Virus record (IMG/VR): IMGVR_UViG_3300034283_002160
Coordinates: 1 to 63,953 of that record
From: a virus
Strand: one strand, 5' to 3'
Length of the DNA: 63,953 nucleotides
This document shows positions 9,869-54,915 of this stretch, piece after piece. The notes beneath the pieces are model-generated. The model did no database searches and was not told where the DNA came from. It worked only from the letters and a program-made list of their open reading frames with translations. Position 1 is the first letter of the stretch; each line of letters starts with the position of its first letter. The position numbers were made by a program, and so were the translations under genes.

Positions 9869-10279
9869 ATGAAACTCATCTCTGCTTTACTCCAGGAATC
9901 TATCTCGGGTCTTTTTACCAACAGTATTAAGGACTTTGGCAATGATGAATATAATGTTTTTGCTACAGGCTACAGGATGTTAGGTGGGGAGATTACCTCC
10001 GGTGATGGTTTTTTGCAGGGATCTCGTGAGAATATGATAGATTTTAAGTTTACACCCAGTATCGTATCACCGGATTACGGTCATTTTGCTTTTGATAACG
10101 TATCTTTACTTAATTACATCAAGACTAAGTTGATGGATACGGATTTGCGTAGGAAGATGGGGAAGGAATTCAATATTGCACCCGTTGCTAAGGATTTCGA
10201 GAGACAGATCCTTATAGCAGCCGGTAATAGCGCCGTTGATATCGTCTCAAGACTAGGCCGGCATAAGAAGGTGAACTAA
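9869..10279 (+). CDS. Hypothetical protein with capsid-targeting-like N-terminus, 136 aa
   Basis: It begins MKLISALLQE|S, a short amphipathic helix ending in L-x-E, like several late proteins further right. The rest (residues 11-136) is unrecognised, with a helical basic C-terminus. If the L-x-E is cut by the phage protease, the mature protein starts at Ser11. It is joined to the next gene by a TAATG overlap. Confidence 0.65.
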   Translation: MKLISALLQESISGLFTNSIKDFGNDEYNVFATGYRMLGGEITSGDGFLQGSRENMIDFKFTPSIVSPDYGHFAFDNVSLLNYIKTKLMDTDLRRKMGKEFNIAPVAKDFERQILIAAGNSAVDIVSRLGRHKKVN

Positions 10280-10713
10280 TGAAACCTCTATCCCCTACCC
10301 TGTTTGAGCTCTTTGACTACGATGATCAGAACGATCTCCGGCAGGAAGGCTTGACGGGTGCGGTTTTGGATTACACCCAGCACCCGTACATCATCTTCGG
10401 GACCTTCATTCGGTCGGTTGAAAACTTCTATATCATCTGCCAGACATACCGCAATACATACGGGGAGAAATTTGATAAAATTGAGGAGCGCTTAAAGCAC
10501 CAGTACTTTAATAGAGTGTACGGGTTCCTAGAAAGGTTCGATGAGACGCAATTGGAACACATAATTGAGGCCCGGCAGTTCACCGACTCAGAGATACTCT
10601 ATGCAGTCAAGTCCGTGCTAGATTTTTATGAGTCTATAGAAGATTACAGAAAATGTGATAGGCTATGGAAAATACTTCTGCTAACGGTAGGAGAAAAAGT
10701 TGGTAGAACCTAA
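10279..10713 (+). CDS. Hypothetical protein, 144 aa
   Basis: Start overlaps the previous stop (TAATG). Mostly helical, rich in Tyr/Phe/Glu, no cleavage-type N-terminus. Unrecognised. Its last codons carry the -33 box of the next promoter. Confidence 0.6.
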   Translation: MKPLSPTLFELFDYDDQNDLRQEGLTGAVLDYTQHPYIIFGTFIRSVENFYIICQTYRNTYGEKFDKIEERLKHQYFNRVYGFLERFDETQLEHIIEARQFTDSEILYAVKSVLDFYESIEDYRKCDRLWKILLLTVGEKVGRT

Positions 10714-10730
10714 ATACTTTCTTATCTTTA
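10700..10730 (+). promoter_or_regulatory. Early promoter for the gene at 10754
   Basis: TTGG 10700-10703, N19, TATCTTTA 10723-10730. Confidence 0.8.
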
Positions 10731-10753
10731 AGTATCAATAAAAAATAAAGGTT

Positions 10754-10945
10754 ATGTTTGGTATTATTATTTTATACTTGTTAATAGGAGTTACGTTTAA
10801 CTACCTGTGGGATGTTACTATCTCATATACCGGTTCGGAAGAGAATCGCTTCACTGTCAAAGAACGGCTTATTGTGTCTATGATCTGGCCTGTGGCTTTA
10901 GGGTTTGGTCTAGCAACGTTTATAGCCGCTCTCTTTAAAAAATAA
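10754..10945 (+). CDS. Two-span membrane protein, 63 aa
   Basis: Hydrophobic segments at about residues 2-20 and 41-60 flank a charged loop (SYTGSEENRFTVKERL). It has the size and topology of a small class II holin-like protein, but many phage membrane peptides look like this. The AAGGTT-ATG leader fixes the start. It is followed 3 nt later by the GIY-YIG gene. Confidence 0.6.
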   Translation: MFGIIILYLLIGVTFNYLWDVTISYTGSEENRFTVKERLIVSMIWPVALGFGLATFIAALFKK

Positions 10946-10948
10946 GTT

Positions 10949-11578: not shown

Positions 11579-11642
11579 TAGGGATTTGCGGGTCGACTTG
11601 GTGCGCGGCGCGGCGCGTGTTAAAACCTTTTTTCTAAACCAG

Positions 11643-11673: not shown

Positions 11674-11786
11674 AAACGAAGGGGAAGAGAAAAAGGGAGA
11701 AGGGAAATATACTTAATATATTATAATATACTAGATATAGATAATATAAATTAATAATATATTTTAATAATAATTAGTAAGCAGAT

Positions 11787-11969: not shown

Positions 11970-11971
11970 CT

Positions 11972-15937: not shown

Positions 15938-16411
15938 ATGAAAGCCAGTGAATTTAAAGAAATAATTAAAGAGGCAGTAAGAGAAGCTATTCAAGAGGAG
16001 TTAAAAACCATCCTCTCTGAAGCAGTGCATACCCCTAAGTCCTCAGTCTCTAGTCCTGCTTTTGAGAGCGTTTACCAAGCACCCAAGCAGCAACCCTTGC
16101 AGTTTACAAGCGGTAATCCGCTTATGGAAGCACTTAATATGACAAGCAGAGCCATGACTTCTGAAGACTACCAGAGCGGTAATACTCAGTCACCGAGCAC
16201 CGTTAGAGCTAATATGTCTGAGATGTTTGCAGGTAGTTCTTACTCCGCCAAACCGACTTACAAACCAGTCTCTGAAGACCCCAGGGCAGTAGCATCAGCA
16301 ATCGCTGCAGCACCTAAAGTAGGATTAGATCTCTCTCAGTTGGGTTTTGTTAACAAAGCAGCCGCTATCGTAAAGCTAGCTGATAAGAAGAGCCAACCAT
16401 ATGGCTTTTAA
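15938..16411 (+). CDS. Protein with cleavage-type N-terminal helix, 157 aa
   Basis: A long amphipathic N-terminal helix (MKASEFKEIIKEAVREAIQE...) ends in ILSE|A at about residue 30, matching the I/L-x-E rule. The rest is Ser/Pro/Gln-rich and probably flexible. It lies between two baseplate genes and overlaps the gp25-like gene by 11 nt. It may be an internal head protein or a baseplate accessory; unrecognised. Confidence 0.6.
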   Translation: MKASEFKEIIKEAVREAIQEELKTILSEAVHTPKSSVSSPAFESVYQAPKQQPLQFTSGNPLMEALNMTSRAMTSEDYQSGNTQSPSTVRANMSEMFAGSSYSAKPTYKPVSEDPRAVASAIAAAPKVGLDLSQLGFVNKAAAIVKLADKKSQPYGF

Positions 16412-36128: not shown

Positions 36129-36129
36129 T

Positions 36130-37274: not shown

Positions 37275-37455
37275 ATCTGCTATGCACGCTTTCATGCGTG
37301 AGCTACTCCTAGAGGTAATCAAGGAGAAACCCGGACTATGGGCTAACATTAGAGCACAAAGAGCAAGGGGTGAAAAACCATCTCACCCTAACTCCAAGGC
37401 TTACAAAGATGCTGTTAAGGCTGGAAAAGAGATTCTTAAAAAAGAAAAGAAATGA
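37258..37455 (+). CDS. Basic small protein with cleavage-type N-terminus, 65 aa
   Basis: GTG start at 37258 (or ATG at 37282). The N-terminal helix AFMRELLLEVIKE|K ends in I-x-E. The rest (LWANIRAQRARGEKPSHPNS) belongs to a recurring small phage family with the ANIRAxRxRGEKP pattern. ATGA overlap with the next gene. Confidence 0.6.
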   Translation: MAKVSKSAMHAFMRELLLEVIKEKPGLWANIRAQRARGEKPSHPNSKAYKDAVKAGKEILKKEKK

Positions 37456-37673
37456 AACTAATAGACCTCCTCTTAGAAGCCAGCAACCCGGAGGACAAAG
37501 TTACTCTGGATATTCCCCTATTCATCAGACTTCTGGAGTACGCGAGAGAAGATGCCCAAGCAGACGTAGACCTACACTTTATAGCCGATAACGCTATCAG
37601 ACTCTCCACAGAAGGTGAAACTCTAACAATGGATCATTACGATCAAATCGTCAAGCAAGATGAAGCTAAGTAA
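37452..37673 (+). CDS. Conserved small protein with cleavage-type N-terminus, 73 aa
   Basis: It begins MKLIDLLLE|A. The mature part (DIPLFIRLLEYAREDAQADV ... LTMDHYDQIV) resembles a conserved small family of marine T4-like phages; function unknown. Acidic and helical. It overlaps the next gene by 14 nt. Confidence 0.65.
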   Translation: MKLIDLLLEASNPEDKVTLDIPLFIRLLEYAREDAQADVDLHFIADNAIRLSTEGETLTMDHYDQIVKQDEAK

Positions 37674-38073
37674 ACTTATCAGCGAAGCGGAGGTTAAATG
37701 TCCTCCCGCAACCCAAGACATCGACCTCAATCTTGAGAACAGACAGAAAGCTATTGACGAATACGGATACGGCCCTGCTGACCCTTCCCAAAAGAACGAA
37801 AAGTTCTGGAAGAAGAAGATGGATATGTGGCAGGTCGATACAGCTGAAGAGCTTAAGAATATGGTATGCGGTACTTGTGCTGCTTTCGATATCACGACCA
37901 AGACCCTAGACTGTATCGCCAAGGGCATCGGATCGGACATGGGTACGGAAGATCCTTACGATGTGATTGATGCCGGTGAGCTAGGATACTGCAGATTTCT
38001 AAAGTTTAAATGCGCAGCCTCTAGAACTTGCGATGCTTGGGTGGTAGGAGGACCGATCAAAGATAAGGAATAA
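37660..38073 (+). CDS. Cys-rich conserved protein with cleavage-type N-terminus, 137 aa
   Basis: It begins MKLSKLISE|A. The mature part has seven cysteines (CPP, MVCGTCAAFD, LDCIAKG, GYCRFLKFKCAASRTCDAW), suggesting a metal or disulphide-stabilised fold. The family recurs in T4-like phages without known role. It is joined to the next gene by TAATG. Confidence 0.65.
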   Translation: MKLSKLISEAEVKCPPATQDIDLNLENRQKAIDEYGYGPADPSQKNEKFWKKKMDMWQVDTAEELKNMVCGTCAAFDITTKTLDCIAKGIGSDMGTEDPYDVIDAGELGYCRFLKFKCAASRTCDAWVVGGPIKDKE

Positions 38074-38540
38074 TGCAAGACCAGCTCCAGGAGTGGATAA
38101 AGTATATCCAGGAGCCTGGCAAGCTTGGCAACGGTCCAATCTGTCCTTATGCCGCTAAAGCAGTCAAAGAGAAGAGAGTAGATATAACTGCTCTAACAAA
38201 CATAGAAGATTTAGAACTGCTAATCGACCGGGTAGATACTACCGAATTCGATGTAAGCATTTTCTATTTTAAGCAGTACACAGATTTTACTATAGAGGAG
38301 TTGGAGCAGAAGATAAAAGAACTTAACTTTATGTTTAAAGCTAAAGATAAAGTAATCTTAGACAACGATCCTCGCAATCCATTTACAGTAAACGGTCATC
38401 GAACAACCTTTAATGGGTGTTATTTATATGTAATACAGTCACTCAGTGACCTAACACAGGCGTCTAATAGATTAAAAACAGGAGATTACTATTCATACTG
38501 GACTCAGGCACAGTATGATGAAGTAGTAGGATGGAGATGA
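38073..38540 (+). CDS. Conserved hypothetical protein, 155 aa
   Basis: No cleavage-type leader. Contains NGPICPYAAKAVKEKRVD near the N-terminus and a Phe/Tyr-rich middle. Unrecognised. It differs from its neighbours in lacking the leader, so it may be a cytoplasmic partner. Confidence 0.6.
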   Translation: MQDQLQEWIKYIQEPGKLGNGPICPYAAKAVKEKRVDITALTNIEDLELLIDRVDTTEFDVSIFYFKQYTDFTIEELEQKIKELNFMFKAKDKVILDNDPRNPFTVNGHRTTFNGCYLYVIQSLSDLTQASNRLKTGDYYSYWTQAQYDEVVGWR

Positions 38541-38749
38541 AAAATACAGAATTCGCAAACCTAATACAGGAACTAGCAGCCGAAGTGCTGGCAGAAGGAA
38601 TTCACGATCCTATGAATCCAGGCATCCTCAAAAAGAGGCTAGGTAAGCTTTCATGTACAAAAGTAAGAGCGGCTAGGGGTAAACTTAAAGACAAAGGCAC
38701 TACGTATGCAAAAGCCCTGCAGAGGTACCTTAACTATCACTGTCAGTGA
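38537..38749 (+). CDS. Small basic protein with cleavage-type N-terminus, 70 aa
   Basis: I choose ATG 38537 because it makes the usual ATGA overlap; ATG 38531 is also in frame. The leader helix ANLIQELAAEVLAE|G is followed by a short basic mature chain (ILKKRLGKLSCTKVRAARGK). Unrecognised; DNA binding is possible. Confidence 0.6.
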   Translation: MKNTEFANLIQELAAEVLAEGIHDPMNPGILKKRLGKLSCTKVRAARGKLKDKGTTYAKALQRYLNYHCQ

Positions 38750-39001: not shown

Positions 39002-40072
39002 ATGAAGCTGCAGGAAAGCGACTTAGGGGACCTTATTCTTCATGCGACTAACTCGGAAACCGTTGAAGATTTTCTAAAAAAAGTAAAAGACGATAAACTA
39101 ATAAGCAATCTCTCCACTAAAGAACTTAAAGATTTTTATAAGGAAAATAGAAATGTAGCTAAAAAAAAATCAAAGATGAATAAAGAAGCTATTTTAAAAG
39201 CCATTAAAGAAGTACTGACTGAAAAGAAAGCTACATATTGCGGAAGATGCGGACATACTCACGTCAAAGGAACCCCTTGCCCAAGACCTTTCAAAGAAGG
39301 GTTATCAACTTACGGCGATGATGCCTATTTCGTAGCACCAAACAAAGGAAAGATGAAAAAAGAAGATATTTTAAAAGCTATTAAAGAAGTGTTAACTGAA
39401 GTTGAGGTCACTGTAATAAGTGATCCAGAATCAAAAAAACGGGCAAAAGAAGCAGCAATGAGAGCTGGTGTAGCAAACCCTGACTTTTTAAAGCAAATTG
39501 ATAATGCTCAAAAAGGAGACACAATTACAGCCGAAGAAGCTATGATTCCTTCAGATGATCGAGTTAGTTATCTTGAAATTGCATTAGGGCGTGTTTGGAA
39601 TATGGGTCGTGGCAATAATAAGATTGATTTAAACTCAATGGCTCAAGAATTAGTTAACGATATGTTTGCTGAATCGTTAGATGAAGATTTAGACCTAGGA
39701 CATGAGGATCACGAACCGCATATGATTAAATCAGAGCTTTACCAGATCGCAAAATACGCTATCGAGCTTTATAAGATGGTAGACCAGTTTGACAGTGAGG
39801 CTGAAGTTGATTTTCCAGCCTGGTGGCAGTCTAAAATCACAAAAGCAAACTCAATGGTTAGCAGCGCCAAGCACTACCTTGAATTTGAACTAGCTAAACC
39901 TGCAATGGATCAGGCTTTGGCAGAAGAAAAAAAAGCTAAAGAACTAGACCCGGTCGGTCATGAAGATGAAGATATCGACAACGACGGCAAAGTAGACAAG
40001 ACTGATAAGTACCTCAAAGGTAGAAGAGTTAAGATCGGCGCAGCAATCGCCCAGCATTCTAAGAAGAAATGA
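39002..40072 (+). CDS. Protein with three cleavage-type sites and a zinc-ribbon segment, 356 aa
   Basis: MKLQE|S starts the chain. Two near-identical helices then follow: KEAILKAIKEVLTE (Glu74) and KEDILKAIKEVLTE (Glu133). Between them lies a short Cys/His segment (YCGRCGHTHVKGTPCP; Cys80, Cys83, Cys93). The C-terminal half is helical and ends with an Asp-rich EF-hand-like stretch (DEDIDNDGKVDKTD) and a basic tail. If each L-T-E is cut, several small peptides result. The duplicated helices point to an internal duplication. Confidence 0.65.
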   Translation: MKLQESDLGDLILHATNSETVEDFLKKVKDDKLISNLSTKELKDFYKENRNVAKKKSKMNKEAILKAIKEVLTEKKATYCGRCGHTHVKGTPCPRPFKEGLSTYGDDAYFVAPNKGKMKKEDILKAIKEVLTEVEVTVISDPESKKRAKEAAMRAGVANPDFLKQIDNAQKGDTITAEEAMIPSDDRVSYLEIALGRVWNMGRGNNKIDLNSMAQELVNDMFAESLDEDLDLGHEDHEPHMIKSELYQIAKYAIELYKMVDQFDSEAEVDFPAWWQSKITKANSMVSSAKHYLEFELAKPAMDQALAEEKKAKELDPVGHEDEDIDNDGKVDKTDKYLKGRRVKIGAAIAQHSKKK

Positions 40073-40638
40073 AACTAAATAAGCTTAAAGATATAATTCA
40101 AGAGGCATACTTTGAGGTGCTTATTGAGGCTGCCCAGCCCCCGGTCCAAGGACCGAAGAGGGACCAAACAGACCCTACATTGAATATTCTCGGTAAGTTT
40201 CCTACCCTCCAAAAGACTCTCACCCACCTCCTAACCCCTCAGTACATGCAATTTGTAGAGAAGGTAGGATGGATGTCCCCTAAACCCTCTACGTTCAAGG
40301 TAGAGTTTAAGTCCGGACAAGATATGGTCTTAAAGTGGATGGGTAAGAATTTTGAAGCCAATATCGAGGGCAAGCGCTACTACCTAGCCAACCTACCGGA
40401 GTACCAGCAGGCACTCGACAAGATCGGCATCATTCTCTCTCACGGTCCAATCCAGACAGGAATGGATGCATTAGGAGGAGAAGAGGGAGCAGGAGGAGAT
40501 GTATTCGCAGGAGCAGGAGCACCTGAACCGGCTGCTGATGCCGGTGCTGATGCCGGTGCTGAAGCAGGAGCCGAGACAGGAGCAGAAACCCCCGCAACTA
40601 CCCCCGGAGCTGGAGAGGACGTATTCGCAGGACTATAA
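40069..40638 (+). CDS. Protein with cleavage-type N-terminus and Ala/Gly/Glu-rich tail, 189 aa
   Basis: The leader KLKDIIQEAYFEVLIE|A ends in L-x-E. The middle (about 45-135) is a folded domain (TPQYMQFVEKVGWMSP...). The last 50 residues are Ala/Gly/Glu/Pro-rich and repetitive, ending DVFAGL; a DVFAG also starts that region. Likely a flexible internal or scaffold-like virion protein. Coupled on both sides (ATGA, TAATG). Confidence 0.6.
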   Translation: MKLNKLKDIIQEAYFEVLIEAAQPPVQGPKRDQTDPTLNILGKFPTLQKTLTHLLTPQYMQFVEKVGWMSPKPSTFKVEFKSGQDMVLKWMGKNFEANIEGKRYYLANLPEYQQALDKIGIILSHGPIQTGMDALGGEEGAGGDVFAGAGAPEPAADAGADAGAEAGAETGAETPATTPGAGEDVFAGL

Positions 40639-41693
40639 TGGATTTAGTCGACAAGATAATCAAGGAATGGTCTTGGAGATGTGCTAAGGGTTATCCGCAG
40701 TTGGACTCTGAGGAAGATCTTCGTATCTTAGAAGGATTATTTAAAATTAACCTTACTGAAGCATCTTTGAGAACCAATACTGAAATAGTAAAAGAAGAGG
40801 AGGAATCTGAAATCACCGTAGATGCTCTTATGGATCTCCTTAAGACTCGCAAAGACGATCTGCCTGCTGAATTCGTTAAGAATCTATACACTCAGATACA
40901 GGGCAAAGGTCAAGGAATATCTTCAAAAATATCTGAAATACTTACCGAAAAAGGTATGGAGGAAAGTAAGTACCTAGTACTAACAACTGCCCAGAGATTG
41001 AATGCTGAAGAAAAACTTCTTAAATTTCTTGAATCCGACTCCATGCCCGGCCTTAGTGATTTAAGAGCTAGTGCTGGAGGCAGTTTAGTTGATTTCTTTG
41101 TAAAGCAGACAAACCTACCTACGGAGCTGGTACAGCCAATAGTTGACTTCTCTTCTATCCGTACAAGCAAAGGAGTTGGCAAAGGTGAGTACGGCCTGGC
41201 TCTCTTTATGAAAGACGGGGTTAAAAGATCAGTAGGAGACGTAGATGTTGAAGGAGTTAGTATAGAAATTAAAGCTGACTCAGCTAGATTAGGAGAGCGT
41301 CACGGTAACTTAAAGCAGTTAATTGAATCCTTAGAACAGATAACGCAAATCCCGGAAGCAGTTAACCTCGCCAAGTACCTCGAACAGATCGGTAAAGCTA
41401 ATTTAGACCCTGCAACTTTGACAAAGGTCAGAGAGGCGGTGAATAGAGAATTCCAAGACGCTTTTGCAGGATCTGATTTTGCCAATATAGGTGAAATTCG
41501 CAACACGCTTTACGGATGGTATGTTGATAACTTCTACGCAACTGAACCCAGTGATTTAATTTTACTTTACATGCAAGGGAATTATAAGATATACTCCCGT
41601 GAAGAATTCAAAGCCGCAGTACTATCAGGTGATATCAAATTTAAGAACGACTTTACCAAAAGCAACAAAGCCCCTCAGCTACTAGGATTCTAA
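40638..41693 (+). CDS. PD-(D/E)XK-like protein with cleavage-type N-terminus, 351 aa
   Basis: Leader ends KINLTE|A (Glu41). The middle contains KGEYGLALF and GDVDVEGVSIEIKADSARLG, with Asp201/Asp203 and Glu210-x-Lys212, the spacing and context of the PD-(D/E)XK nuclease fold. Related sequences with a GKGE...E-x-K pattern occur in marine T4-like phages. A nuclease packaged in the head could enter with the DNA; this is inference. Confidence 0.6.
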   Translation: MDLVDKIIKEWSWRCAKGYPQLDSEEDLRILEGLFKINLTEASLRTNTEIVKEEEESEITVDALMDLLKTRKDDLPAEFVKNLYTQIQGKGQGISSKISEILTEKGMEESKYLVLTTAQRLNAEEKLLKFLESDSMPGLSDLRASAGGSLVDFFVKQTNLPTELVQPIVDFSSIRTSKGVGKGEYGLALFMKDGVKRSVGDVDVEGVSIEIKADSARLGERHGNLKQLIESLEQITQIPEAVNLAKYLEQIGKANLDPATLTKVREAVNREFQDAFAGSDFANIGEIRNTLYGWYVDNFYATEPSDLILLYMQGNYKIYSREEFKAAVLSGDIKFKNDFTKSNKAPQLLGF

Positions 41694-45890: not shown

Positions 45891-46745
45891 ATGAAAATTA
45901 AGCATTCGAAGTATAAAAACACAGGCCTTATTTTTGAGCTGTTGGTGAAGCAAATTGCTGCCGACACTCTATCGAGGAAAGACTCCCCGGCCGTGAAGGT
46001 ACTCAAGAAGTTCTACACAGGTAAAACATCGCTAGTTAGAGAGTTCAAGCTTTACGAATACATCCTTAAGAACAAAGGAGTATCCCAGCCCAAAGCCGAC
46101 ACCATCGTCTCCACTATCATCGAGATCTCAAACAAGTTAGATAGAACAGCTATCAAGAAGCAGAAGTACGATCTTATCAAAGAGATCAAAGAGTCTTACG
46201 ACCTAGAGGAGTTCTTCTCAATGAAGGTCCGGGACTACAAGCCGCTGGCTGCTCTGTACTGCTTGATGGAGACTCAAAGCTCTGAAGATCTTGCCGATCC
46301 TAAGTTCATCGTCGATAACAGAGTTACTATTCTAGAGCACTTGACTGCTAAGAAGCAAAACGAAGACGATGTTAAGGATGCGATGATCGAAGAGTTTTCA
46401 AAGTACGATAAGGATTTAAGATTACTTACTTACAAGATTCTCCTGGAGAAGTTTAACGGAGAGTATGAAAATTTCCTACCTCAGCAGAAAGATATCCTTA
46501 GAGAGTTTATCACCGCTTCTGAGTCACAGGTCAAGCTTAGGAATATGATCAACGAGGAGCTAGAGAAAATTTCTATAGAAGTTAATGCTCTTACCCCTAA
46601 GGTCAAAGACGAGATTATTAAGATCAAGATCGACGAAGTTCAAAAGCTTATCAAGCCTTTGGATAAGAAGACCCGGATTGATGACAATCACATCGTCAAT
46701 CTCCTTCAGTACTATGAACTTGTTAACGAGCTAAAGACTTTATGA
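45891..46745 (+). CDS. Prohead assembly-region protein, 284 aa
   Basis: Almost all helical and highly charged. It lies between portal and protease, the place of T4 gp67/gp68, and similar proteins of this length occur there in marine T4-like phages. The N-terminus KIKHSKYKNTGLIFELLVKQ is distinctive. Probably a core or portal-assembly factor. ATGA overlap with the next gene. Confidence 0.6.
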   Translation: MKIKHSKYKNTGLIFELLVKQIAADTLSRKDSPAVKVLKKFYTGKTSLVREFKLYEYILKNKGVSQPKADTIVSTIIEISNKLDRTAIKKQKYDLIKEIKESYDLEEFFSMKVRDYKPLAALYCLMETQSSEDLADPKFIVDNRVTILEHLTAKKQNEDDVKDAMIEEFSKYDKDLRLLTYKILLEKFNGEYENFLPQQKDILREFITASESQVKLRNMINEELEKISIEVNALTPKVKDEIIKIKIDEVQKLIKPLDKKTRIDDNHIVNLLQYYELVNELKTL

Positions 46746-46960
46746 AAAAGCATAAATTCACCGAGCTCCTCAGAGAACTTATCCTAGACCGGCTCAGCGA
46801 GATGAACGTCACCGGAGCGATAGGAGCGCCCCAAACCCCTTACGCTTTTTCGAAAGGGAAAAAAGACAACAGAGCCGTCACCGCAATGAAGAGCTTTGGT
46901 TACACTAAGACAGAGAGACCAAAGAGACCTTCCAACACTAAATTGTTTGATTTCAGATGA
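46742..46960 (+). CDS. Small prohead core-like protein, 72 aa
   Basis: The leader helix KFTELLRELILDRLSE|M ends in L-x-E. The mature chain is basic and Gly/Pro-containing (VTGAIGAPQTPYAFSKGKKD). Size, position and cleavage site resemble T4 gp67/PIP, which the protease degrades to internal peptides. ATGA overlap with the next gene. Confidence 0.6.
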   Translation: MKKHKFTELLRELILDRLSEMNVTGAIGAPQTPYAFSKGKKDNRAVTAMKSFGYTKTERPKRPSNTKLFDFR

Positions 46961-48264
46961 AAACACTACAAGAAAAATATAATGCTATTTTAGAAGGAAA
47001 CTTCTCTAAAGTACAATTCGTAAGAGATGCTAGACTAGCACACTCTAACCTCATTACCCAATTCAACAGCTTTGCAGACACCGTCGCTATCCTTAAGAAC
47101 AAGGGGATGGTGGTAGAGGCTAAGAAAGCTGAAGTAACAGCTTACAAGAAGCCAGAAGTAGATCCTATCGACATGGTTGCACCGGATCTTTTGGATCACG
47201 GTATTGAAGCCGAGCTTCATGCTGCAGGCATCACCGGTACTCCTTCAGAAGAAGAGTACGCAAAAGCAAAAGAGAAAGCTGCTAAAGAGCTTATCAAAGA
47301 TCCTCTTTGCTACAAGAACGCCCAGACCATGACCGAACCCGGTGAGAAGATGGAGAAAGCAAAGCTAAGTGAAGAGACTGCTCTAGACAGGGTTGAGAGA
47401 AACGCTTCTAGCAAAGTTCAAGATAAGCTAGGAGATATTGCTGATACAGTAGCTGAGAAACCAGCCTCCGTAGGAGCAGCTTTTAGAAAAAAAGTGCTTG
47501 CAAATCCTACACACTACGTTAAGATGTCTGCTCACGAACTTAAAAAAGAGTTTAACAAGTTTAAGCTTGAAGAGGGGTACGAAGATGAAGAGGAAGGATC
47601 TGGTTATTCGTACGAGTATAAAGAAGGTGACGGTGCATCTGAAAAGGAAATACAAGGAAATATAGACCACTATAAGAAAAATCCTTTGATTTGGAAAATG
47701 CAGGCAAAAAAAGATTTTGAAAATATGGCAGCTGGTGAGTCGGCTGATACAAAAACTGAACACTATCCAGAGTGGAAGAAGGAAGATTTTGAGAAAGTAC
47801 TTAAAGCCCTTGCAGAGAGTCCAAACATGAGTGAAGATGACGTTAACGAACCCGGTATCGATCCTCGAAGAACCACCACTACTGATTACGATTCATCTGC
47901 GAAACAAAAAGAAGACGGCACTTACGATATTTCAGGAACGATGAATGTACCCCGGCTCGAAGAAGGCGACGGTGCACCGGAGGAGGAACTTGAAAAACAC
48001 ATTATGGAGTTTGATATCTATAAAAATTCGTTAAAGAATAGTGGTAAACACGCTTATAATACAAAATTAAAAGATTTTAAAGATCTTGCAGCTGGTAAAT
48101 TAGGTGATATAAAAGACCAGCTCTTTCCCTCGTGGAAGAAAGAAGATTTCGCTAAAATAATTAAAGACCTTCCAGGTCCTTTTCTACTAGAATCTAACTC
48201 GCAGCAAGAAACCCAGCTCAAAGAAGCAGTAAAGTCTTTAATTAAGAAGACTCTAGAATCATAA
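46957..48264 (+). CDS. Prohead core/internal protein with duplicated domain, 435 aa
   Basis: It begins MKTLQEKYNAILE|G, close in style to T4 internal-protein leaders (MKTYQEF-type). It contains a repeated domain of about 65 residues (EEGDGA... WKKEDFEKVLKAL, near 218-290, and EEGDGAPEEEL... WKKEDFAKIIKDL, near 330-405). Acidic and Lys-rich, as expected for a core protein. It sits directly before the protease gene. Confidence 0.65.
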   Translation: MKTLQEKYNAILEGNFSKVQFVRDARLAHSNLITQFNSFADTVAILKNKGMVVEAKKAEVTAYKKPEVDPIDMVAPDLLDHGIEAELHAAGITGTPSEEEYAKAKEKAAKELIKDPLCYKNAQTMTEPGEKMEKAKLSEETALDRVERNASSKVQDKLGDIADTVAEKPASVGAAFRKKVLANPTHYVKMSAHELKKEFNKFKLEEGYEDEEEGSGYSYEYKEGDGASEKEIQGNIDHYKKNPLIWKMQAKKDFENMAAGESADTKTEHYPEWKKEDFEKVLKALAESPNMSEDDVNEPGIDPRRTTTTDYDSSAKQKEDGTYDISGTMNVPRLEEGDGAPEEELEKHIMEFDIYKNSLKNSGKHAYNTKLKDFKDLAAGKLGDIKDQLFPSWKKEDFAKIIKDLPGPFLLESNSQQETQLKEAVKSLIKKTLES

Positions 48265-48266
48265 TC

Positions 48267-48845
48267 ATGGCAAATCTCTTAATTGAATATACCCCTTTCC
48301 GTCCTACGATCACCGAGTCCGTAAAAAGACCCGGTATCTTCGAGGTTGTGGGTGTTATGCAGAGAGCCAATGCCAAGAACCAAAACGGAAGGATCTACGA
48401 AAAAGACATCCTTGCAAGAGAGGTCAAGAAGTACATGGAAGCTTTCGTTAAGGTGGGTAATGCATACGGGGAGTTAGATCACCCGGAATCACCTATCGTC
48501 TCACTAAAAAATGCTTCCCACGTGGTGAAGGATCTTTGGTGGGATGGAGATAACCTAATGGGTAAGGTTGAGTTACTGAACACCCCAGCTGGCAACATCG
48601 TGAAAGAAATCATCAAGGGCGGTCATACGATCGGTATCTCTTCAAGAGGCACAGGCTCAGTCCAGCCCATCGGTGAGAATACCTTAATGGTGAAGGACGA
48701 CTTCGAACTTGTGTGTTGGGATTTCGTATCGAATCCCTCCACTCACGGAGCATTTTTAAACCCCGTCTCCTTAAATGAGGTAAAGCAGGTAGTAGATCCT
48801 TACGCCCGGCTTCACAACATCATAGGTGACATTCTTAGAGCGTAA
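48267..48845 (+). CDS. gp21: Prohead core protease, gp21-like, 192 aa
   Basis: A serine protease of the herpesvirus/gp21 fold. The catalytic residues are visible as His72 (GELDHPESP) and Ser125 or Ser126 (TIGISSRGTG). The opening GVMQRANAKNQNGRIYEKDI and WWDGDNLMGKVELLNTPAG are typical. It removes scaffold and leader peptides after (I/L)-x-E during head maturation. Its length is close to T4 gp21 (212 aa). Its likely substrates are the many genes here that carry that site. Confidence 0.9.
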   Translation: MANLLIEYTPFRPTITESVKRPGIFEVVGVMQRANAKNQNGRIYEKDILAREVKKYMEAFVKVGNAYGELDHPESPIVSLKNASHVVKDLWWDGDNLMGKVELLNTPAGNIVKEIIKGGHTIGISSRGTGSVQPIGENTLMVKDDFELVCWDFVSNPSTHGAFLNPVSLNEVKQVVDPYARLHNIIGDILRA

Positions 48846-48865: not shown

Positions 48866-49159
48866 ATGAACAATTTCGATTTAAAAAAATTCTTAGTAGA
48901 GAACAAACTCACTACTAACTCTAAGGCGCTAAGTGTAAACGAAGCGGCCGAAATGAAAGACGGGGAATACATGGTTGACGGAAAACAGGTAAACTTTGAT
49001 TCTATTGAACTAGGTAAAGACGACTTTGGAAACGGACTAGAGTGGTTCATCGATAAGGCCACCTTTGTTGACGGAACCGAACTAACCCCAGATCAGCTAG
49101 AAGAGCTAACCGACCTATACTACCCTAACGGTAGACACGTATCCATGGAGGATATGTAA
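48866..49159 (+). CDS. Small acidic head-region protein, 97 aa
   Basis: The N-terminus MNNFDLKKFLVENKLTTNSK is an opening I recognise from small proteins of marine T4-like phages, and may be another targeting leader (FLVE|N). The rest is acidic (DDFGNGLEWFIDKATFVDG...). Function unknown. It lies between the protease and the histone-like gene. Confidence 0.6.
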   Translation: MNNFDLKKFLVENKLTTNSKALSVNEAAEMKDGEYMVDGKQVNFDSIELGKDDFGNGLEWFIDKATFVDGTELTPDQLEELTDLYYPNGRHVSMEDM

Positions 49160-49674: not shown

Positions 49675-51051
49675 ATGGCTAACAAAGATTTATTTAAGCA
49701 GGCTATCGCCGACGCTAAATCAATTCGTGAAGCTGCTATCGCTAACGCAAAACTTGCTTTGGAAGAGTCTCTTACTCCTCAACTTAAAGAGCTTTTAGCT
49801 CAACGTCTCACAGAGATGGAAGAAGAGGATGCACCCACCACCGTTATTTCTGAAGAAGAAGTAGCTGAGGAGGTTCAAGAAGAGACCCTTGAAGAAGCAA
49901 TCGGAGCGGAAGAGGAGCACTCAGAAGAAGGTGAAGTAGAAGGAGATGAAGCCGGCGAAGAAGCTGAGGTTGATTCTGAAGAATCAGAAGACGAGGCTGA
50001 AGAAGAGGTAGGAGAGATGAGTGTTGAAGACCTTAAGGACTTGATCCGGGACGTACTTATGCAAGTAATGGGCGACCAGGAACAAGGAGAAGAGGACGAA
50101 TTAGAAGCCGACGCTATGGACATGACGGGAGATGATATGACAGCTGTAACTGATACAGAAATCAATATCGACGAACTTATGGCCGAGCTAGCGACTCTTA
50201 ACAACCCCCAGGGACTTACAGCACACGGTAACGTTGCAGAAGTAGAAGAAGCAGCTGATCCTCTTAGAGAATCAGCAATTGCCGAACTAAAGAAGCATAT
50301 GAAGCCCGGAACTATGGAAGGTATGAGAACATATGCTGAAGCAAAAGGCATGGACGTTCATGAAGTCCTAGGAAAGATGGTTGAATACGGAACTACCGCT
50401 GAAGTTAAGAAAGTCGCTGAACTGATGGGAGTTGCTGAAGCCTTGGGCGAAGCTGCTTACCACAGAATAATGGAAAGACTAACTTCCGAGATGAAGCACG
50501 CTCCAGAAATGGAAGAGAACGTCATGGCAGATCTAGCTATTTTCTCAGCTCAAAACCCAGAGCAAGTAATGGCAGCTATTTTAGCAGCTGTTCCCGCTCT
50601 TGCTGCTGCCGGAATGGGAGTTGAAAAGATCGTTCAAAAAATCAGAGGCGGAGCAAAAGACGCAGCGAAAGCTGGCGAAGAAGCTCCTACTGCCGACGAC
50701 CTTATGGAAGCTCTATCAACCATCGAAACTCTTCGAAACGATTTAAACGAGACTAACTTGCTTAACGCTAAGTTACTCTACGTCAATAAAGTTTTTAAAG
50801 CCAGCAACCTATCTGAATCGCAGAAAGCCAGCGTCATTGCTGCTTTTGATAAAGCCGAGACAGTGAAGGAAGTGAAGCTAGTATACGAAACAGTTAGTGA
50901 AAATGTTTCTTCTGTAGGTAAGAAAGAAGTAGTGAGGGAAGCCAAGGGCTTTGCCTCTGCTGCTGCAGGAATCTCTACCAAACCAGGAGTAATCACAGAA
51001 ACTAACCAGGCTGTATTGCGTATGCAAAAACTTGCAGGAATTATTAAATAA
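49675..51051 (+). CDS. gp22: Prohead scaffold protein, gp22-like, 458 aa
   Basis: I choose ATG 49675 (MANKDLFKQAIADAKSIREA) over the GTG at 49651, because this opening is typical of gp22 proteins. A cleavage-type site QRLTE|M is at residues 44-48. A very acidic stretch follows (about 50-140). The C-terminus (VITETNQAVLRMQKLAGIIK) is the conserved end. It builds the core inside the prohead and is degraded by the protease. It lies directly before the capsid gene, as in T4. Confidence 0.85.
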   Translation: MANKDLFKQAIADAKSIREAAIANAKLALEESLTPQLKELLAQRLTEMEEEDAPTTVISEEEVAEEVQEETLEEAIGAEEEHSEEGEVEGDEAGEEAEVDSEESEDEAEEEVGEMSVEDLKDLIRDVLMQVMGDQEQGEEDELEADAMDMTGDDMTAVTDTEINIDELMAELATLNNPQGLTAHGNVAEVEEAADPLRESAIAELKKHMKPGTMEGMRTYAEAKGMDVHEVLGKMVEYGTTAEVKKVAELMGVAEALGEAAYHRIMERLTSEMKHAPEMEENVMADLAIFSAQNPEQVMAAILAAVPALAAAGMGVEKIVQKIRGGAKDAAKAGEEAPTADDLMEALSTIETLRNDLNETNLLNAKLLYVNKVFKASNLSESQKASVIAAFDKAETVKEVKLVYETVSENVSSVGKKEVVREAKGFASAAAGISTKPGVITETNQAVLRMQKLAGIIK

Positions 51052-51068: not shown

Positions 51069-52655
51069 ATGGAATTAAACACTCTTTTAAACGAATCAGC
51101 TCAAGGCTTTAAGTCTTTGCAAGCTGACGCCGGTAGACTCGCTGACAAGTGGTCTGCAACCGGTCTTCTTGAGGGTCTATCAAACGACATCGACAAGAAC
51201 AACATGGCTATGGTGCTTGAAAACCAAGCCAAGCAAATCATCAAGGAAGCTAACGCTACCGGAGGCGGTGCCATCGGTACTGCTACAGGTAATGCTGAGC
51301 AGTGGGCTGGTGTAGCTTTGCCACTTGTAAGAAAGGTATTCGCTCAAATCGCTGCTAAAGATTTCGTATCTGTACAGCCTATGAACCTTCCTTCAGGTCT
51401 GGTTTTCTACCTTGACTTTAAGTACGGTAACAATGCTAACGGCTTTACTGCCGACAGCAATATGTACGGTAACGTATCAACTGCCAACAGCAAAATCGGC
51501 GTTGACACTGAAGTAGCTGGAGGCCTTTACGGTGCCGGTCGCTTTGGATACACCATCAACTCAGCTTCTTTAGCTATCACTCAGTCTACTGGTGCTGCTA
51601 CTTCAGCTTCTATCGCTTATCAAGACGGCATTCTGCCTGCTTCATACAAGACTGTAACTGTTAGTATGAGTGGTCTTTCTGCTGATCTAAAAGGTGCAAG
51701 AGCTTTCCGCCTGATTTCTGGTTCAACCGACGTAACTACTAACCCAGAACTTACTACTGTATCTGGTAACAACGTTATCTTCGTAGTATCTGGTTCTGCC
51801 CTTACCGTAACTGCCGAGATCACAGGATCAGTTATGTACCACAAGCAGCCTACTGACAACACGAGAGGTGACTTCGAATTCACTGGCGGTGCTGGAGACA
51901 CTACTCCTGCTATCCCAGAGATCAACGTATCCCTAGCTTCTGAAGCTATTGTTGCTAAGACTCGTAAGTTGAAGGCTCAATGGTCACCAGAATTCGCTCA
52001 GGACTTGAACGCTTACCACAGCATCGACGCTGAGGCCGAGTTGACTTCAATGCTTTCTGAGTACATTTCTATGGAGATCGATCTCGAGCTTCTTGACATG
52101 CTTATCCAAGACGCAGTTACTACTGAGCGTTGGTCAGCTGAGAACAACAAGATTTGGAACGGTACTAACTGGACCACTTCTACTTCAGATTTCTACAACA
52201 CACAAGGTCAGTGGTTCCAAACCCTCGGTACTAAAGTACAGAAGGTATCCAACAAGATCCACCAGAAGACTTTGCGTGGAGGTGCTAACTTCCTAGTAGT
52301 TTCTCCAACTGTTGCAACTATCCTCGAGTCAATCCCAGGATATGCTGCTGACACAGACGGCGACAAAATGGATTTTGCAATGGGCGTTCAGAAAGTAGGT
52401 CAACTTAACAGCCGCTACCGCGTCTACAAGAACCCATACATGACTGAAAACGTAATCCTTATGGGCTACAGAGGTTCACAGTTCCTAGAGACAGGAGCCG
52501 TTTACGCTCCTTACATTCCTCTTATGATGACACCTTTGGTGTACGATCCACAGAACTTCTCACCAGTGAAAGGTATCATGACTCGTTACGCTAAGAAGAT
52601 GGTTCGTCCAGAATTCTACGGTAAGATCTTCGTCTCTGACGTAGCTACTATCTAA
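51069..52655 (+). CDS. gp23: Major capsid protein, gp23-like, 528 aa
   Basis: Strong gp23 patterns: SGLVFYLDFKYG, RKLKAQWSPEFAQDLNAYHS, ELLDMLIQDA, GANFLVVSPTVATILESIPG, FSPVKGIMTRYAKKMVRPEF. The N-terminal 60 residues end IIKE|A, so the mature protein would start at Ala61, close to the T4 cut after residue 65. This site is the best calibration of the cleavage rule in this phage. It forms the hexamers of the head and is followed by a strong terminator. Confidence 0.95.
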   Translation: MELNTLLNESAQGFKSLQADAGRLADKWSATGLLEGLSNDIDKNNMAMVLENQAKQIIKEANATGGGAIGTATGNAEQWAGVALPLVRKVFAQIAAKDFVSVQPMNLPSGLVFYLDFKYGNNANGFTADSNMYGNVSTANSKIGVDTEVAGGLYGAGRFGYTINSASLAITQSTGAATSASIAYQDGILPASYKTVTVSMSGLSADLKGARAFRLISGSTDVTTNPELTTVSGNNVIFVVSGSALTVTAEITGSVMYHKQPTDNTRGDFEFTGGAGDTTPAIPEINVSLASEAIVAKTRKLKAQWSPEFAQDLNAYHSIDAEAELTSMLSEYISMEIDLELLDMLIQDAVTTERWSAENNKIWNGTNWTTSTSDFYNTQGQWFQTLGTKVQKVSNKIHQKTLRGGANFLVVSPTVATILESIPGYAADTDGDKMDFAMGVQKVGQLNSRYRVYKNPYMTENVILMGYRGSQFLETGAVYAPYIPLMMTPLVYDPQNFSPVKGIMTRYAKKMVRPEFYGKIFVSDVATI

Positions 52656-52741: not shown

Positions 52742-53428
52742 ATGTCCTCAAATCATCATGAAGACGAAGTCTTCAAAGCAAAGAGACGTCCAAAGAATCC
52801 TATCAAGTTTAACATCACGTTAAACGAAGAGCAGAAGGCCGCCAAAGAAGTAATTCTAAGTAACCCCGTAACAGTATTAAGAGGTATGGCCGGTAGCGGT
52901 AAGACCTTGGTGGCTGTACAGACGGCGTTAGACCTGCTCTTTACCGGACAGGTGGAGAAGATTATCATCACCCGGCCTACGGTCTCTAAAGAAGATATCG
53001 GTTTTCTACCCGGTGATATCAGAGAAAAGATGGACCCGTGGCTTGCCCCGATCTACCACAACCTATACCTGCTATACGATAAGGTGAAAGTCGACCGTGA
53101 GGTAGAAGATGGAAGGATAGAGATTCTACCCTTTGCGTTTATGAGAGGTAGGACATTTATCAATGCATTTGTGATTGTAGATGAAGCCCAGAACGTAACC
53201 CACACCCAGATGGAGATGGTGCTAGGAAGACTAGGTAAGAACAGCTGGATGTCCATATGCGGGGATCTAGCCCAGATCGACCTCAAGACCAAAAAAGAGA
53301 CAGGTCTTTCATTTTTAACCCGGGTCGAAGAGCAGGTTAAGGGCGTACGTGTTGTTACACTTAAACAGAACCACAGACACCCAATCGTTGAGCCGATCTT
53401 AAAGGTATACGAGACCTTTAGAGATTGA
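52742..53428 (+). CDS. phoH: PhoH-like P-loop ATPase, 228 aa
   Basis: Walker A GMAGSGKT (48-55), Walker B FVIVDEAQN and a downstream Q-rich motif with LKQNHRHP. This is the PhoH family, common in marine phages. The role in infection is unresolved (RNA or phosphate-stress links have been proposed for bacterial PhoH). It sits unusually between capsid and neck genes. Confidence 0.88.
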   Translation: MSSNHHEDEVFKAKRRPKNPIKFNITLNEEQKAAKEVILSNPVTVLRGMAGSGKTLVAVQTALDLLFTGQVEKIIITRPTVSKEDIGFLPGDIREKMDPWLAPIYHNLYLLYDKVKVDREVEDGRIEILPFAFMRGRTFINAFVIVDEAQNVTHTQMEMVLGRLGKNSWMSICGDLAQIDLKTKKETGLSFLTRVEEQVKGVRVVTLKQNHRHPIVEPILKVYETFRD

Positions 53429-53439
53429 ACTGTCACTGC

Positions 53440-53447
53440 TATTTATA
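53440..53447 (+). promoter_or_regulatory. Candidate late promoter motif (neck operon)
   Basis: TATTTATA in context TGC-TATTTATA-TTTAAA, 14 nt before the ATG at 53462. Confidence 0.6.
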
Positions 53448-53461
53448 TTTAAACTGTAGAC

Positions 53462-54604
53462 ATGGCAGATATTCAGATTTGGAACGGAACTTCTAACTTT
53501 TCAGCTGGTCAAACTCCATTCGGTTTCTACGACACCGATACTGAGTTTGTTACTGATGCTAACAGAGTTGCTAAGTTCTGTGGCCAGAGACTAGGCTACC
53601 CTTTGATGGATGTAGAGCTGCAGTCAGGATCATTCTTTGCCTGCTTTGAAGAAGCAGTAACAACTTACGGCAACGAAGTATTCCAGTATAAAGTTAGAGA
53701 GAACTACCTCTCGATGGAAGGAGCCTCAAAAGCAGGAAGCTTTAACAATACTTTGATCCAGCCAACCTTAGGAAGGGTGATGGAGATCACTGAAAACTAC
53801 GGAACTGAAGCAGGAGTAGGAGGAAACGTAACTAAGTACACCGGTTCGCTTTACGTCTCGGGCGGGGTACAGGTTTATGACTTAGATCAATGGGCTACAG
53901 CTCAAGGAATCACCGGAGGAATAGAGATTAGAAGAGTTTTCTTCGAAGCACCACCAGCAATCCTGCGTTACTTTGATCCTTACGCCGGTACGGGCACAGG
54001 CATCCAATCACTTATGGATGCATTTGACTTCGGATCATACTCTCCCGGTATTAACTTCCTGTTAATGCCCGCATACTACGATCTTTTAAAGGTTCAAGCT
54101 ATTGAACTTAATGATCAGATCAGAAGATCAGCTTACACATTTGAACTTATCAACAATAAGCTAAGACTCTTCCCGGTCCCCAAGACGGACGGCTATATGA
54201 TGTTCGAATATTTTAAGACAGATGATAGAAGAGCTGCAGTTTCCGGCTCCGGGGCTAACCTGATTACCAATATAGGGGAAGTTCCTTACGGTAACCCTAC
54301 TTATGAAGGCATCAATTCAGTAGGCAGACAGTGGATATACAAATATACCTTAGCTCTATCTAAAGAATTGCTAGGATATATCCGGGGAAAGTACCAGCAA
54401 ATCCCAGTTCCGGGGTCAAACACTGCTTTAAACCAGGCTGACCTGCTTTCGGATGCAAGGACAGAAAAAACCGAACTACTTACCCAGCTCAGAGATATGC
54501 TTGAGCAAACCTCCAGACGCAATCAGTTAGAGAGAAAGGCCAACGAAAGTGAATTTATTAAAACAACACTTCAGAGTGTGCCGCTAACTATTTTTGTAGG
54601 ATGA
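53462..54604 (+). CDS. Neck/head-completion protein, gp13-like, 380 aa
   Basis: The opening FVTDANRVAKFCGQRLGYPL then MDVELQSGSFFACFEEAV has the adaptor-type layout of phage neck proteins: a short helical start, then a helical bundle binding the portal. The order gp13-, gp14-, gp15-like after the head genes agrees. It is longer than T4 gp13 (309 aa). Coupled to the next gene through ATGA. Confidence 0.6.
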   Translation: MADIQIWNGTSNFSAGQTPFGFYDTDTEFVTDANRVAKFCGQRLGYPLMDVELQSGSFFACFEEAVTTYGNEVFQYKVRENYLSMEGASKAGSFNNTLIQPTLGRVMEITENYGTEAGVGGNVTKYTGSLYVSGGVQVYDLDQWATAQGITGGIEIRRVFFEAPPAILRYFDPYAGTGTGIQSLMDAFDFGSYSPGINFLLMPAYYDLLKVQAIELNDQIRRSAYTFELINNKLRLFPVPKTDGYMMFEYFKTDDRRAAVSGSGANLITNIGEVPYGNPTYEGINSVGRQWIYKYTLALSKELLGYIRGKYQQIPVPGSNTALNQADLLSDARTEKTELLTQLRDMLEQTSRRNQLERKANESEFIKTTLQSVPLTIFVG

Positions 54605-54915
54605 TACTGCTAGAAGAACTTTTAAGTGAGGTAGAATTCAGGATGTACAAGACTTATGTCTATGTAGAGTTCAATCCTGATACCGACATTACTACCATCG
54701 CCCAGCTAATCAGAAGCGTAGACAAGGTCGCAGTCGTGAATAACAAATCTAATAAGGAGGATGACAGACCAAGGGGTCTGCTATTGATAAAAATTATCAC
54801 CACTAAGCCAGCCCTTGAGACCTTCCAGGAATTACAAAGAGCTGCAATGACTACAATCCCTGACCTAAAAAAATTCCAATTCTCTGAACGTCACATCGAG
54901 CAATCTGAGATATGA
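54601..54915 (+). CDS. Small protein with cleavage-type N-terminus in the neck operon, 104 aa
   Basis: MILLEELLSE|V matches the leader pattern. The mature part is a small alpha/beta fold (YKTYVYVEFNPDTDITTIAQ...LLLIKIITTKPALETFQEL). A similar gene is seen at this place in related phages; function unknown. Overlaps both neighbours by 4 nt. Confidence 0.6.
   Translation: MILLEELLSEVEFRMYKTYVYVEFNPDTDITTIAQLIRSVDKVAVVNNKSNKEDDRPRGLLLIKIITTKPALETFQELQRAAMTTIPDLKKFQFSERHIEQSEI

Follow-up and report, generated by a model that had tools for sequence, protein, structure and literature searches.

The window analyzed here, the whole of the 63,953-base IMG/VR virus record IMGVR_UViG_3300034283_002160, is a T4-like myovirus fragment as judged from its gene content, from a phage of aquatic bacteria, and a dozen or so otherwise unrelated proteins encoded in it appear to carry removable tags for loading into the phage head. 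These tags are N-terminal leaders ending in a glutamate, the kind of site cut by the T4 prohead protease gp21. The principle is known from T4; new here are the types of tag, their swapping between proteins and the presence of many more cargoes. The leaders, the specific conservation of their Glu, their modularity and their exchange are demonstrated by sequence, and from them we infer docking, cutting, packaging and injection in the window phage. The nearest named phage is Flavobacterium phage immuto of Flavobacterium sp. LMO8, with 75.7% identity in gp21 and 51-76% in five anchor proteins; the remaining 2,520 of the 2,524 phage records with a gp21 match share less than 60% identity in that protein, and a megablast search of 24 kb of the window against phages returned no match. 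Because immuto is the nearest named phage, the host is probably a flavobacterium.

In T4, the gp21 motif is described as L/I-x-E, with residues 4 and 7 of the leader acting in targeting and residues 8 and 10 in processing (PMC9026906), and the internal proteins as carrying N-terminal propeptides of 10-19 residues that run to [LI]xE ahead of unrelated bodies (PMC9026906, PMC3012670). T4 IPII and IPIII start with MKTYQEFIAE↓A and gp24 with MAKINELLRE↓S, the arrow marking the site after Glu. The head genes of the window provide the setting for such a system:

48267-48845, plus strand: gp21 prohead protease (Peptidase_S77, E = 8.9e-32), with an LLIE of its own near the N-terminus, like T4 gp21
49675-51051, plus strand: putative scaffold in the gp22 position, between gp21 and gp23, named on position alone
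51069-51248, plus strand: gp23 propeptide, with a leader-like start MELNTLLNE↓S and an IKE↓A cleavage site at residue 60

A preliminary description of this DNA had claimed both a gp21 homolog and a correctly placed IKE↓A site in the capsid protein, and both are borne out. The gp23 protein is 74% identical to the immuto protein annotated as gp23, and its cleavage Glu is kept in all 30 aligned N-termini (29 distinct, rows picked by an M[ED][LI]N start), with Ile or Val at the P3 position. Each of the 29 distinct N-termini also has its [LI]xE at residue 8 or 9, and one, MEINELLSEST, comes close to the T4 gp24 start.

The leaders fall into three regular-expression classes, whose labels blur A and B: class A, about 9-11 residues of the form MKLIxxLLxE; class B, a two-turn helix of about 20 residues; and class C, FDLKKFLVENKLTxNS[RK]xLxE. 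All 12 leader strings quoted in the preliminary description are located at the genes it named, and in 11 of them the Glu is found among residues 1-20; in the twelfth, 40638, the NLTE↓A ends at residue 41 and so does not close an N-terminal helix. That list was also incomplete, lacking 36130, 37282, 48866 and two internal copies in 39002. Genes are named here by their start positions, and the conservation figures count homologous N-termini with the motif:

9869-9898, plus strand: class A leader MKLISALLQE↓S on a 136-residue protein (gene 9869-10279), kept in a 57.7% identical homolog (L235); relative G003 has MKLISALLSES
15938-16021, plus strand: class B long-helix leader MKASEFKEIIKEAVREAIQEELKTILSE↓A (gene 15938-16411); [ILVMF]xE in 4 of 4 diverged N-termini
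27974-28003, plus strand: kinase-like protein (gene 27974-28513) with class A leader MKLIQALLTE↓S; the leader differs among the 13 aligned sequences (MISIYNILKE, MKLFSLLKE, MIKLISILKE, MRLSHVILGE), all 13 of which keep the Glu
34074-34106, plus strand: leader MGILADLLLTE↓E before a 5'(3')-deoxyribonucleotidase (gene 34074-34634); [ILVMF]xE in 11 of 21 diverged N-termini, all matches counted
35199-35240, plus strand: leader MILTESKVTTVLTE↓G (gene 35199-36128); [ILVMF]xE in 5 of 9 diverged N-termini and the strict motif in 3 of 9, a weaker case
36130-36159, plus strand: class A leader MIKLIDLIKE↓I at an ATG inside open reading frame 36094-36609, where a mechanical upstream TTG start hides the likely ATG
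37282-37326, plus strand: leader MHAFMRELLLEVIKE↓K (open reading frame 37258-37455, ATG at 37282); 4 of 4 diverged N-termini, for example MKKSQLIQLVREIIKE↓KKRPGLWANI
37452-37478, plus strand: class A leader MKLIDLLLE↓A (gene 37452-37673); beyond an identical copy, one near-identical homolog (LLLE↓E)
37660-37686, plus strand: cysteine-rich protein annotated as HiPIP (gene 37660-38073), headed by the class A leader MKLSKLISE↓A; [ILVMF]xE in 46 of 49 distinct N-termini, from the best 80 of 290 loci by similarity to the leader-bearing query and hence biased towards leaders
38537-38596, plus strand: class B leader MKNTEFANLIQELAAEVLAE↓G (gene 38531/38537-38749); diverged N-termini 8 of 10 loose, before a conserved body, and 4 of 10 strict
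39176-39223, plus strand: internal copy of a leader, MNKEAILKAIKEVLTE↓K, ahead of the Cys-rich stretch of gene 39002-40072, read from the sequence
39353-39400, plus strand: second such copy, MKKEDILKAIKEVLTE↓V, farther along gene 39002-40072, likewise read from the sequence
40069-40128, plus strand: class B leader MKLNKLKDIIQEAYFEVLIE↓A (gene 40069-40638); diverged N-termini 27 of 28 loose, 21 of 28 strict
40638-41693, plus strand: PD-(D/E)xK nuclease-like protein, leader doubtful, with E10-W11 inside a conserved N-terminal domain
46742-46801, plus strand: small protein in the T4 gp67/68 position, with class B leader MKKHKFTELLRELILDRLSE↓M; 46 of 46 diverged N-termini
46957-46995, plus strand: leader MKTLQEKYNAILE↓G in the T4 gp67/68 position; diverged N-termini 3 of 3 loose, 0 of 3 strict
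48866-48943, plus strand: class C leader MNNFDLKKFLVENKLTTNSKALSVNE↓A (gene 48866-49159), member of the family found with a degenerate pattern
54601-54630, plus strand: class A leader MILLEELLSE↓V (gene 54601-54915); all 20 diverged N-termini, the most distant at 27% identity, have [ILVMF]xE

The simplest alternative is chance, since [IL]xE could be frequent in Glu-rich, AT-rich phage proteins. The count proposed in the preliminary description, [IL]xE within the first 45 residues, yields only a weak excess: 44 of the 84 window open reading frames (ORFs, some of which may be spurious) against 33.4±4.1 in 1000 whole-protein shuffles with a maximum of 47, so that many members could be coincidental by this measure. 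A narrower form, [ILVMF][ILVMFA]xE in residues 2-16 is found in 23 of 84 proteins against 7.6±2.5 shuffled (maximum 16), and in 23 of 81 against 7.3±2.1 in random internal windows of the same proteins; about 7 of the 23 matches are expected by chance. Genome-wide, true starts exceed internal-Met pseudo-starts for Glu (85 vs 36), and this excess is matched by other residues (Ser, 81 vs 25), which speaks for chance at that scale and places the signal in the late block. We therefore ran the pattern through all 20 amino acids at the Glu position in the pooled late blocks of five gp21-positive genomes, namely the window (9800-55500, the range of the preliminary description), immuto, G003, G005 and G004, the blocks of the other genomes being set by gene anchors. 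Glu is found in 51 of 223 late proteins against 26 of 632 elsewhere (p=7e-15), and the next best residue reaches p=0.15. With one vote per family, hydrophobic-hydrophobic-x-Glu occurs in 30 of 96 late families against 17 of 379 elsewhere (p=4e-12), and none of the 19 other residues is enriched (smallest p 0.13). Genome by genome, late-block leaders against leaders elsewhere number 12/53 vs 9/166 in immuto, 13/48 vs 8/177 in G003, 13/49 vs 5/119 in G001 (nearly the same as the window) and 7/29 vs 3/142 in G004, with p from 7e-4 to 2e-5; G005, whose genome is permuted and reversed, has 11 in 55. For the set as a whole, neither chance nor the overall composition of helices can account for this result. 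Chance is thus refuted as an account of the whole, and we give it next to no weight, although individual members of the leader list may be there by chance.

The same test bears on the idea that these segments are ordinary docking or oligomerization helices of late proteins, of the tail or membrane for example, in which the Glu is incidental. Amphipathic N-terminal helices are common, and 40638 does have a conserved N-terminal domain. Such helices would not explain why, of 20 residues, enrichment at the site is for Glu only, or why the P1 Glu is kept while the surrounding helix varies, and we regard the idea as improbable. Of the 13 families with leaders, 7 keep the strict motif in at least 70% of diverged N-termini, compared with 5 of the 34 remaining late families; the difference shows conservation and not discovery because the leader families were chosen by motif. 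In the first homolog set, 9869, 27974, 37452 and 37660 each had at most one homolog below 90% identity. Some orthologs of 35199 and 38531 lack the leader or have another in its place, and immuto carries MIKLIDLLTE↓S, comparable to the leader at 36130, on a 141-residue protein outside its late block.

The cysteine-rich 37660 family points to a link between leader and protease. Peptidase_S77 was found in 12 of the 20 contigs tested. Five of six matching, more distant phage records were examined; none gave an S77 match, and in four of them the cysteine-rich body has no such leader, while in the fifth, ct2t2046, an IxE lies at residue 17 behind a Pro, which is ambiguous. In all such S77-negative calls the profile matched in none of the records concerned; in a separate scan the same model matched 17 of 19 records. 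A Cys-rich stretch is also found in gene 39002-40072, where it is flanked by two slightly differing copies of the leader-like helix KKEDILKAIKEVLTE. A homolog of this protein (L021) begins at its own single leader copy, and by its sequence 39002 looks like a two-tag polyprotein.

Modularity is most evident in class C. A degenerate DNA pattern for DLKKFLVENKLT matched 66 stretches of the viral collection, which yield 60 distinct class C proteins in 29 body families (blastp at 1e-3 on residues 29 onward with single linkage, a definition that leaves room for remote kinship). The near-invariant leader FDLKKFLVENKLTxNS, with its window copy at 48866, fronts all 29 of these families. A second [ILVM]xE site stands behind it, at an almost constant distance, in 59 of 60 proteins against 24.2±3.5 shuffled (maximum 37, 2000 shuffles) and in 28 of 29 body families. 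The contigs of 24 of the 66 stretches were examined for Peptidase_S77, and 14 have it, among them all ten that are at least 38 kb long; the ten without it are fragments of 15-37 kb. When 50,697 phage records were searched by tblastn (E up to 1), the class C leader turned up in the four immuto records only, and ten class C proteins compared with Pfam gave nothing over the cut-off. Contig L195 (6641-7246) has a class C leader within a longer protein, with LQE↓G before it.

Such sharing might instead reflect recombination anchors or relics of gene shuffling, that is, homology at the DNA level and not a targeting signal. Contig L184, with four class C matches within 2 kb and different bodies behind them, is what this explanation would lead one to expect. 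Outside the searched pattern, however, Ser (59 of 60) and Arg/Lys (56 of 60) are kept by several different codon families, the second [ILVM]xE site persists amid variable sequence, and classes A and C substitute for each other on homologous bodies; we consider recombination quite improbable as the source of the leaders. A third-codon-position test on class C was dropped except outside the pattern, as it is biased by the search pattern; the few changes at codon positions 1 and 2 inside that pattern are likewise forced by the search and are no evidence.

The substitution of one leader for another is seen among 16 homologous hydrophobic proteins, of which 11 have other leaders (MKIADIILEN, MKLSQIIFEN, MKKSELVKLIKEEL) and 5 have class C, and in a second homologous family of 8 whose leaders split 2 to 6. 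Exchange of leader classes on homologous bodies is expected if the classes serve the same function. In two contigs (L027, L055), a member of a leader-swapping family immediately follows gp21. Some leader-bearing proteins have long hydrophobic stretches (L175 7672-8343, L082 22295-22867 and L112 7776-8378); in some contigs they come right behind gp21, and they are possible ejection or membrane proteins.

Several of the bodies resemble enzymes. The nucleotidase-like protein of the preliminary description corresponds to 34074, which is identified by a match to phrog_2643 (5'(3')-deoxyribonucleotidase, E 7e-22) and by DMDGV, the HAD DxD motif, at residue 25; its Pfam matches are all below their cut-offs. 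The claimed kinase-like protein, 27974, stands in part. It has a kinase-like N-lobe in which the Gly-rich loop (G29, G31, G34) and K57 are invariant in 13 of 13 sequences, and its predicted model (AlphaFold pLDDT 62) has protein kinases as best Foldseek matches (E 2.6e-4). The Asp of the catalytic loop (HRD) is, on reading the alignment by eye, not conserved in the family, and the chain ends at the DFG-Asp with no C-lobe beyond, so kinase activity is doubtful. Mini kinase-like proteins of about 142-179 residues that end at the DFG-Asp occur at 32 viral loci (L274-L305), with a broken frame in two. A kinase of the Zeta_toxin family (PF06414, E 8.8e-13) in relative G005 has the leader MIKLTDLILE↓S immediately ahead of its P-loop.

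The protein at 40638, described earlier as nuclease-like and leader-bearing, keeps the first attribute: an E...GD...ExK signature of the PD-(D/E)xK type (E184, D201, E210, K212) is invariant in 8 of 8 aligned sequences (8 used of 10 matches plus query). Its model gives weak VIA matches (Z 4.1-4.5) to HinP1I, MspI and HhaI, and Foldseek returned no match at E 0.001 or better. The leader is doubtful, as invariant Trp, Arg, Gly and Pro make the N-terminus look like a folded conserved domain. Pfam and PHROGs scans returned no internal-protein family, PADLOC gave nothing for nine of ten proteins and weak ATPase matches for the tenth, and a PDB sequence search yielded nothing useful for the nuclease-like and kinase-like families. 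Counter-defense or early host takeover are guesses at the role of the cargo, the former by analogy with the T4 internal proteins Ip1-3. Close to the nucleotidase, two neighboring genes at 30320-34071 encode nucleotidyltransferase-like GS...DIDL motifs, seen by eye, and have no leader; the larger corresponds by gene order to an immuto gene annotated as NadR.

Cyanophages provide virion enzymes with comparable N-termini. Synechococcus phage S-CREM2 is positive for Peptidase_S77, and its virion proteome has been tabulated with coordinates (PMC10665884). All 52 listed virion proteins were compared with the other ORFs of our own calls. By a general leader criterion fixed earlier, 8 of 52 virion proteins match against 4 of 152 others (p=0.0024). 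The pattern [FYL]..F[LIVMF].E in residues 1-35, picked after the N-termini were known, matches 7 of 52 against 1 of 160 others and 3 of 795 internal tiles (p=2.5e-4). Among the matches are a SAM hydrolase (MKDFDSFLEE), an APH/ChoK-like kinase (VKRFDAFLTE) and a cytidylyltransferase (MKNFSSFLTE↓A); the remaining ones are a Cas9-like nuclease (RFASFMAE↓A), ORF13, ORF136 and one baseplate protein. In phage S-SCSM1, NMNAT is reported in virions (PMC9602691), and the only NMNAT homolog that we found there starts with MKSFLQFLKE↓A. The homologs of S-SM2 and S-RIM2 start with MKSFFQFLSEA and MKKFSAFLTEA; among the four further cytidylyltransferase stretches, those of S-SCSM2R and S-PM2 end before the N-terminus. 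These cyanophage enzymes bear T4-type leaders, theirs following FxxF[LM]xE and those described here mostly IxxLLxE. The main text of PMC10665884 contains no wording on N-terminal features, leaders, targeting, cleavage or internal proteins, and no report of leaders on cyanophage enzymes was found in the open-access literature (bioRxiv not covered); the accessible parts of the sources gave no virion table with coordinates for S-CREM1 or S-SZBM1. By eye, the cyanophage leader proteins L401, L403 and L406 and the S-CREM2 proteins ORF12 and ORF14 have a common second stretch after the leader (approximately LxLxxDGxGxWxDxxG), perhaps a head-related module.

The closest known counterparts are T4 IPI-III and Alt, which share with the window a gp21 protease, a short propeptide ending in [LI]xE and the same leader on unrelated bodies. 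Class A spacing equals that of T4 IPIII position by position (MKLIQALLTE↓S and MKLISALLQE↓S against MKTYQEFIAE↓A), and the IPIII positions (hydrophobic or aromatic at 4 and 7, Ile or Leu at 8, Glu at 10) recur in class A leaders 9869, 27974, 36130 and 54601. The Glu is at residue 10 in 16 of 57 late leaders and at residue 9 in 10; in classes B and C the P3/P1 pair is retained at a spacing unlike that of T4. Unlike T4, the window phage group has three leader classes, including the long near-invariant class C, as well as enzyme bodies, the two-tag protein 39002 and exchange of leader classes on homologous bodies. It also has more leader-pattern late genes than the four named internal cargoes of T4 (12 of 53 in immuto, a figure that includes chance matches and head proteins). 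The Ip proteins of T-even phages are reported to share only their N-terminal leader, with at least ten Ips in related phages; Ip1-3 inhibit GmrSD type IV restriction enzymes, and the targets of Ip2 and Ip3 were assigned only in 2025 (PMC12373910). The likeness to these proteins lies in a leader common to otherwise different proteins; here the hosts are probably flavobacteria. In phiKZ and SPN3US, head-protein propeptides are described as cut after Glu by a diverged gp21-type protease (PMC9026906), a likeness in the cleavage after Glu, drawn from description and not from sequence, with a protease of a different lineage.

These comparisons suggest the following course of events. During head assembly, the N-terminal helix, with hydrophobic or aromatic residues near positions 4 and 7 and Ile, Leu or Val at P3, would dock its protein onto the core of the scaffold. 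Within the prohead, the gp21 protease would then cut after [ILV]-x-Glu, and the freed body would stay loose in the head during DNA packing. Accessory bodies (nucleotidase, kinase-like, cysteine-rich and hydrophobic ones, and the Zeta-toxin-type kinase in the relative) would exit with the DNA into the next cell. The tag is modular, with three leader classes standing before unrelated bodies and substituting for each other on homologous ones. We consider capsid targeting and gp21 cleavage of the T4 internal-protein kind likely from the sequences, and injection, at least of the enzyme-like bodies, somewhat probable by analogy.

The leaders could also be gp21 targets without injection, most of their carriers being scaffold or core factors that are cut up and then discarded or kept in the head. 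The genes 46742 and 46957 occupy the interval between portal and gp21, as genes 67 and 68 do in T4; gp21 and gp23 bear similar motifs themselves; and the largest leader family (44 members, 40 of class B) is that of 46742, although its loci are mostly centered on gp21. On the other side, a nucleotidase, a Zeta_toxin-family kinase, kinase-like proteins and cysteine-rich bodies are unlikely core components, and cyanophage enzymes detected in virions bear T4-type leaders. We therefore hold this alternative to be possible but rather unlikely for the set as a whole. For two genes it may well apply: given their position, 46742 and 46957 are probably head-core or assembly proteins, not part of an injected arsenal. 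Of the arsenal of packaged, trimmed and delivered proteins put forward in the preliminary description, what the sequences support, aided by the published virion proteomics of the two cyanophages, is the occurrence of gp21-type cleavable targeting leaders on many unrelated late proteins; 46742 and 46957 probably do not belong to it, and the place of 40638 is doubtful.

Several observations weigh against targeting and injection and have to be set beside this evidence. No proteomics was found for the window phage or its relatives, and the class B helices could be structural. The general leader criterion misses T4 IPI, IPII and IPIII and matches T4 early genes (26 of 255 T4 proteins match, gp22, gp24 and Alt among them); it is therefore neither specific nor complete gene by gene. 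Its genome-wide rate is 16/86 in the window, against 11/258 at internal Met pseudo-starts, and 5.8-10.7% in the gp21-positive relatives immuto, G001, G003, G004 and G005. In the Bacteroidetes phages crAss001, phi4:1 and phi14:2, for which the S77 search was negative, it is 3.3-7.0%, so that these controls (crAss001, 7/100) overlap the lowest gp21-positive genome, G004 at 5.8%. Because gp21-positive (5.8-18.6%) and gp21-negative (3.3-7.0%) genomes overlap, these rates leave the question unsettled, and the late-block residue-swap test was used instead. The gp21-positive pelagiphage HTVC008M (L115-L122) has 7 leaders in 187 proteins, near its own pseudo-start rate of 2.3%, and a DNA-pattern scan of viral contigs for MKLIxxLLxE[AS] matched 24 stretches, as did its shifted control (24). 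In S-CREM2, the tight T4-spaced pattern from Met is not enriched (3/52 virion proteins vs 3/152), the baseplate match (ORF122) looks accidental, the motif of the Cas9-like ORF12 ends as late as residue 25, and 2 of the 6 non-structural virion proteins are leaderless endolysins; the authors also allow for carry-over from the lysate (PMC10665884).

Leader and protease also fail to covary cleanly for the nucleotidase. Its leader is present in window-like and immuto-like phages, and homologs in Phosso, Atu_ph07, OLIVR1, Cr30 and phiXF1 begin at the HAD motif. In all, 6 of 12 nucleotidase N-termini are leaderless (these five and phiM12), and five of the six phages are S77-positive (Phosso, Atu_ph07, Cr30, phiM12 and phiXF1), which means that the protease alone does not bring the leader. 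In phiM5, with no S77 match, a long N-terminus is fused to the nucleotidase; in the S77-positive Melnitz, HTVC008M and RHph_I1_18 the enzyme has an ambiguous [ILV]xE in an N-terminal extension. In Rhizobium phage RHph_I1_18 (L096), the annotated start MQVRILSE↓A is leader-like and an internal Met follows, so the start is uncertain.

Taken together, these results lead us to favor, by a small measure, the view that T4-like phages of aquatic bacteria have a general delivery system, in which an exchangeable head-import tag of at least three classes can precede nearly any enzyme or small protein and is cut by the prohead protease, a dozen or so fast-changing effectors are sent along with the genome, and multi-tag polyproteins such as 39002 are split into cargoes. 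For T4, only a handful of injected head proteins are known. If the reading is correct, the injected repertoire of uncultured T4-like phages would be readable from sequence, larger than that of T4 and inclusive of enzymes. Cyanophage virion enzymes, which their authors did not clear of carry-over, would gain a packaging mechanism, and the leaders would provide ready-made, non-T4 tags for loading proteins into phage heads.

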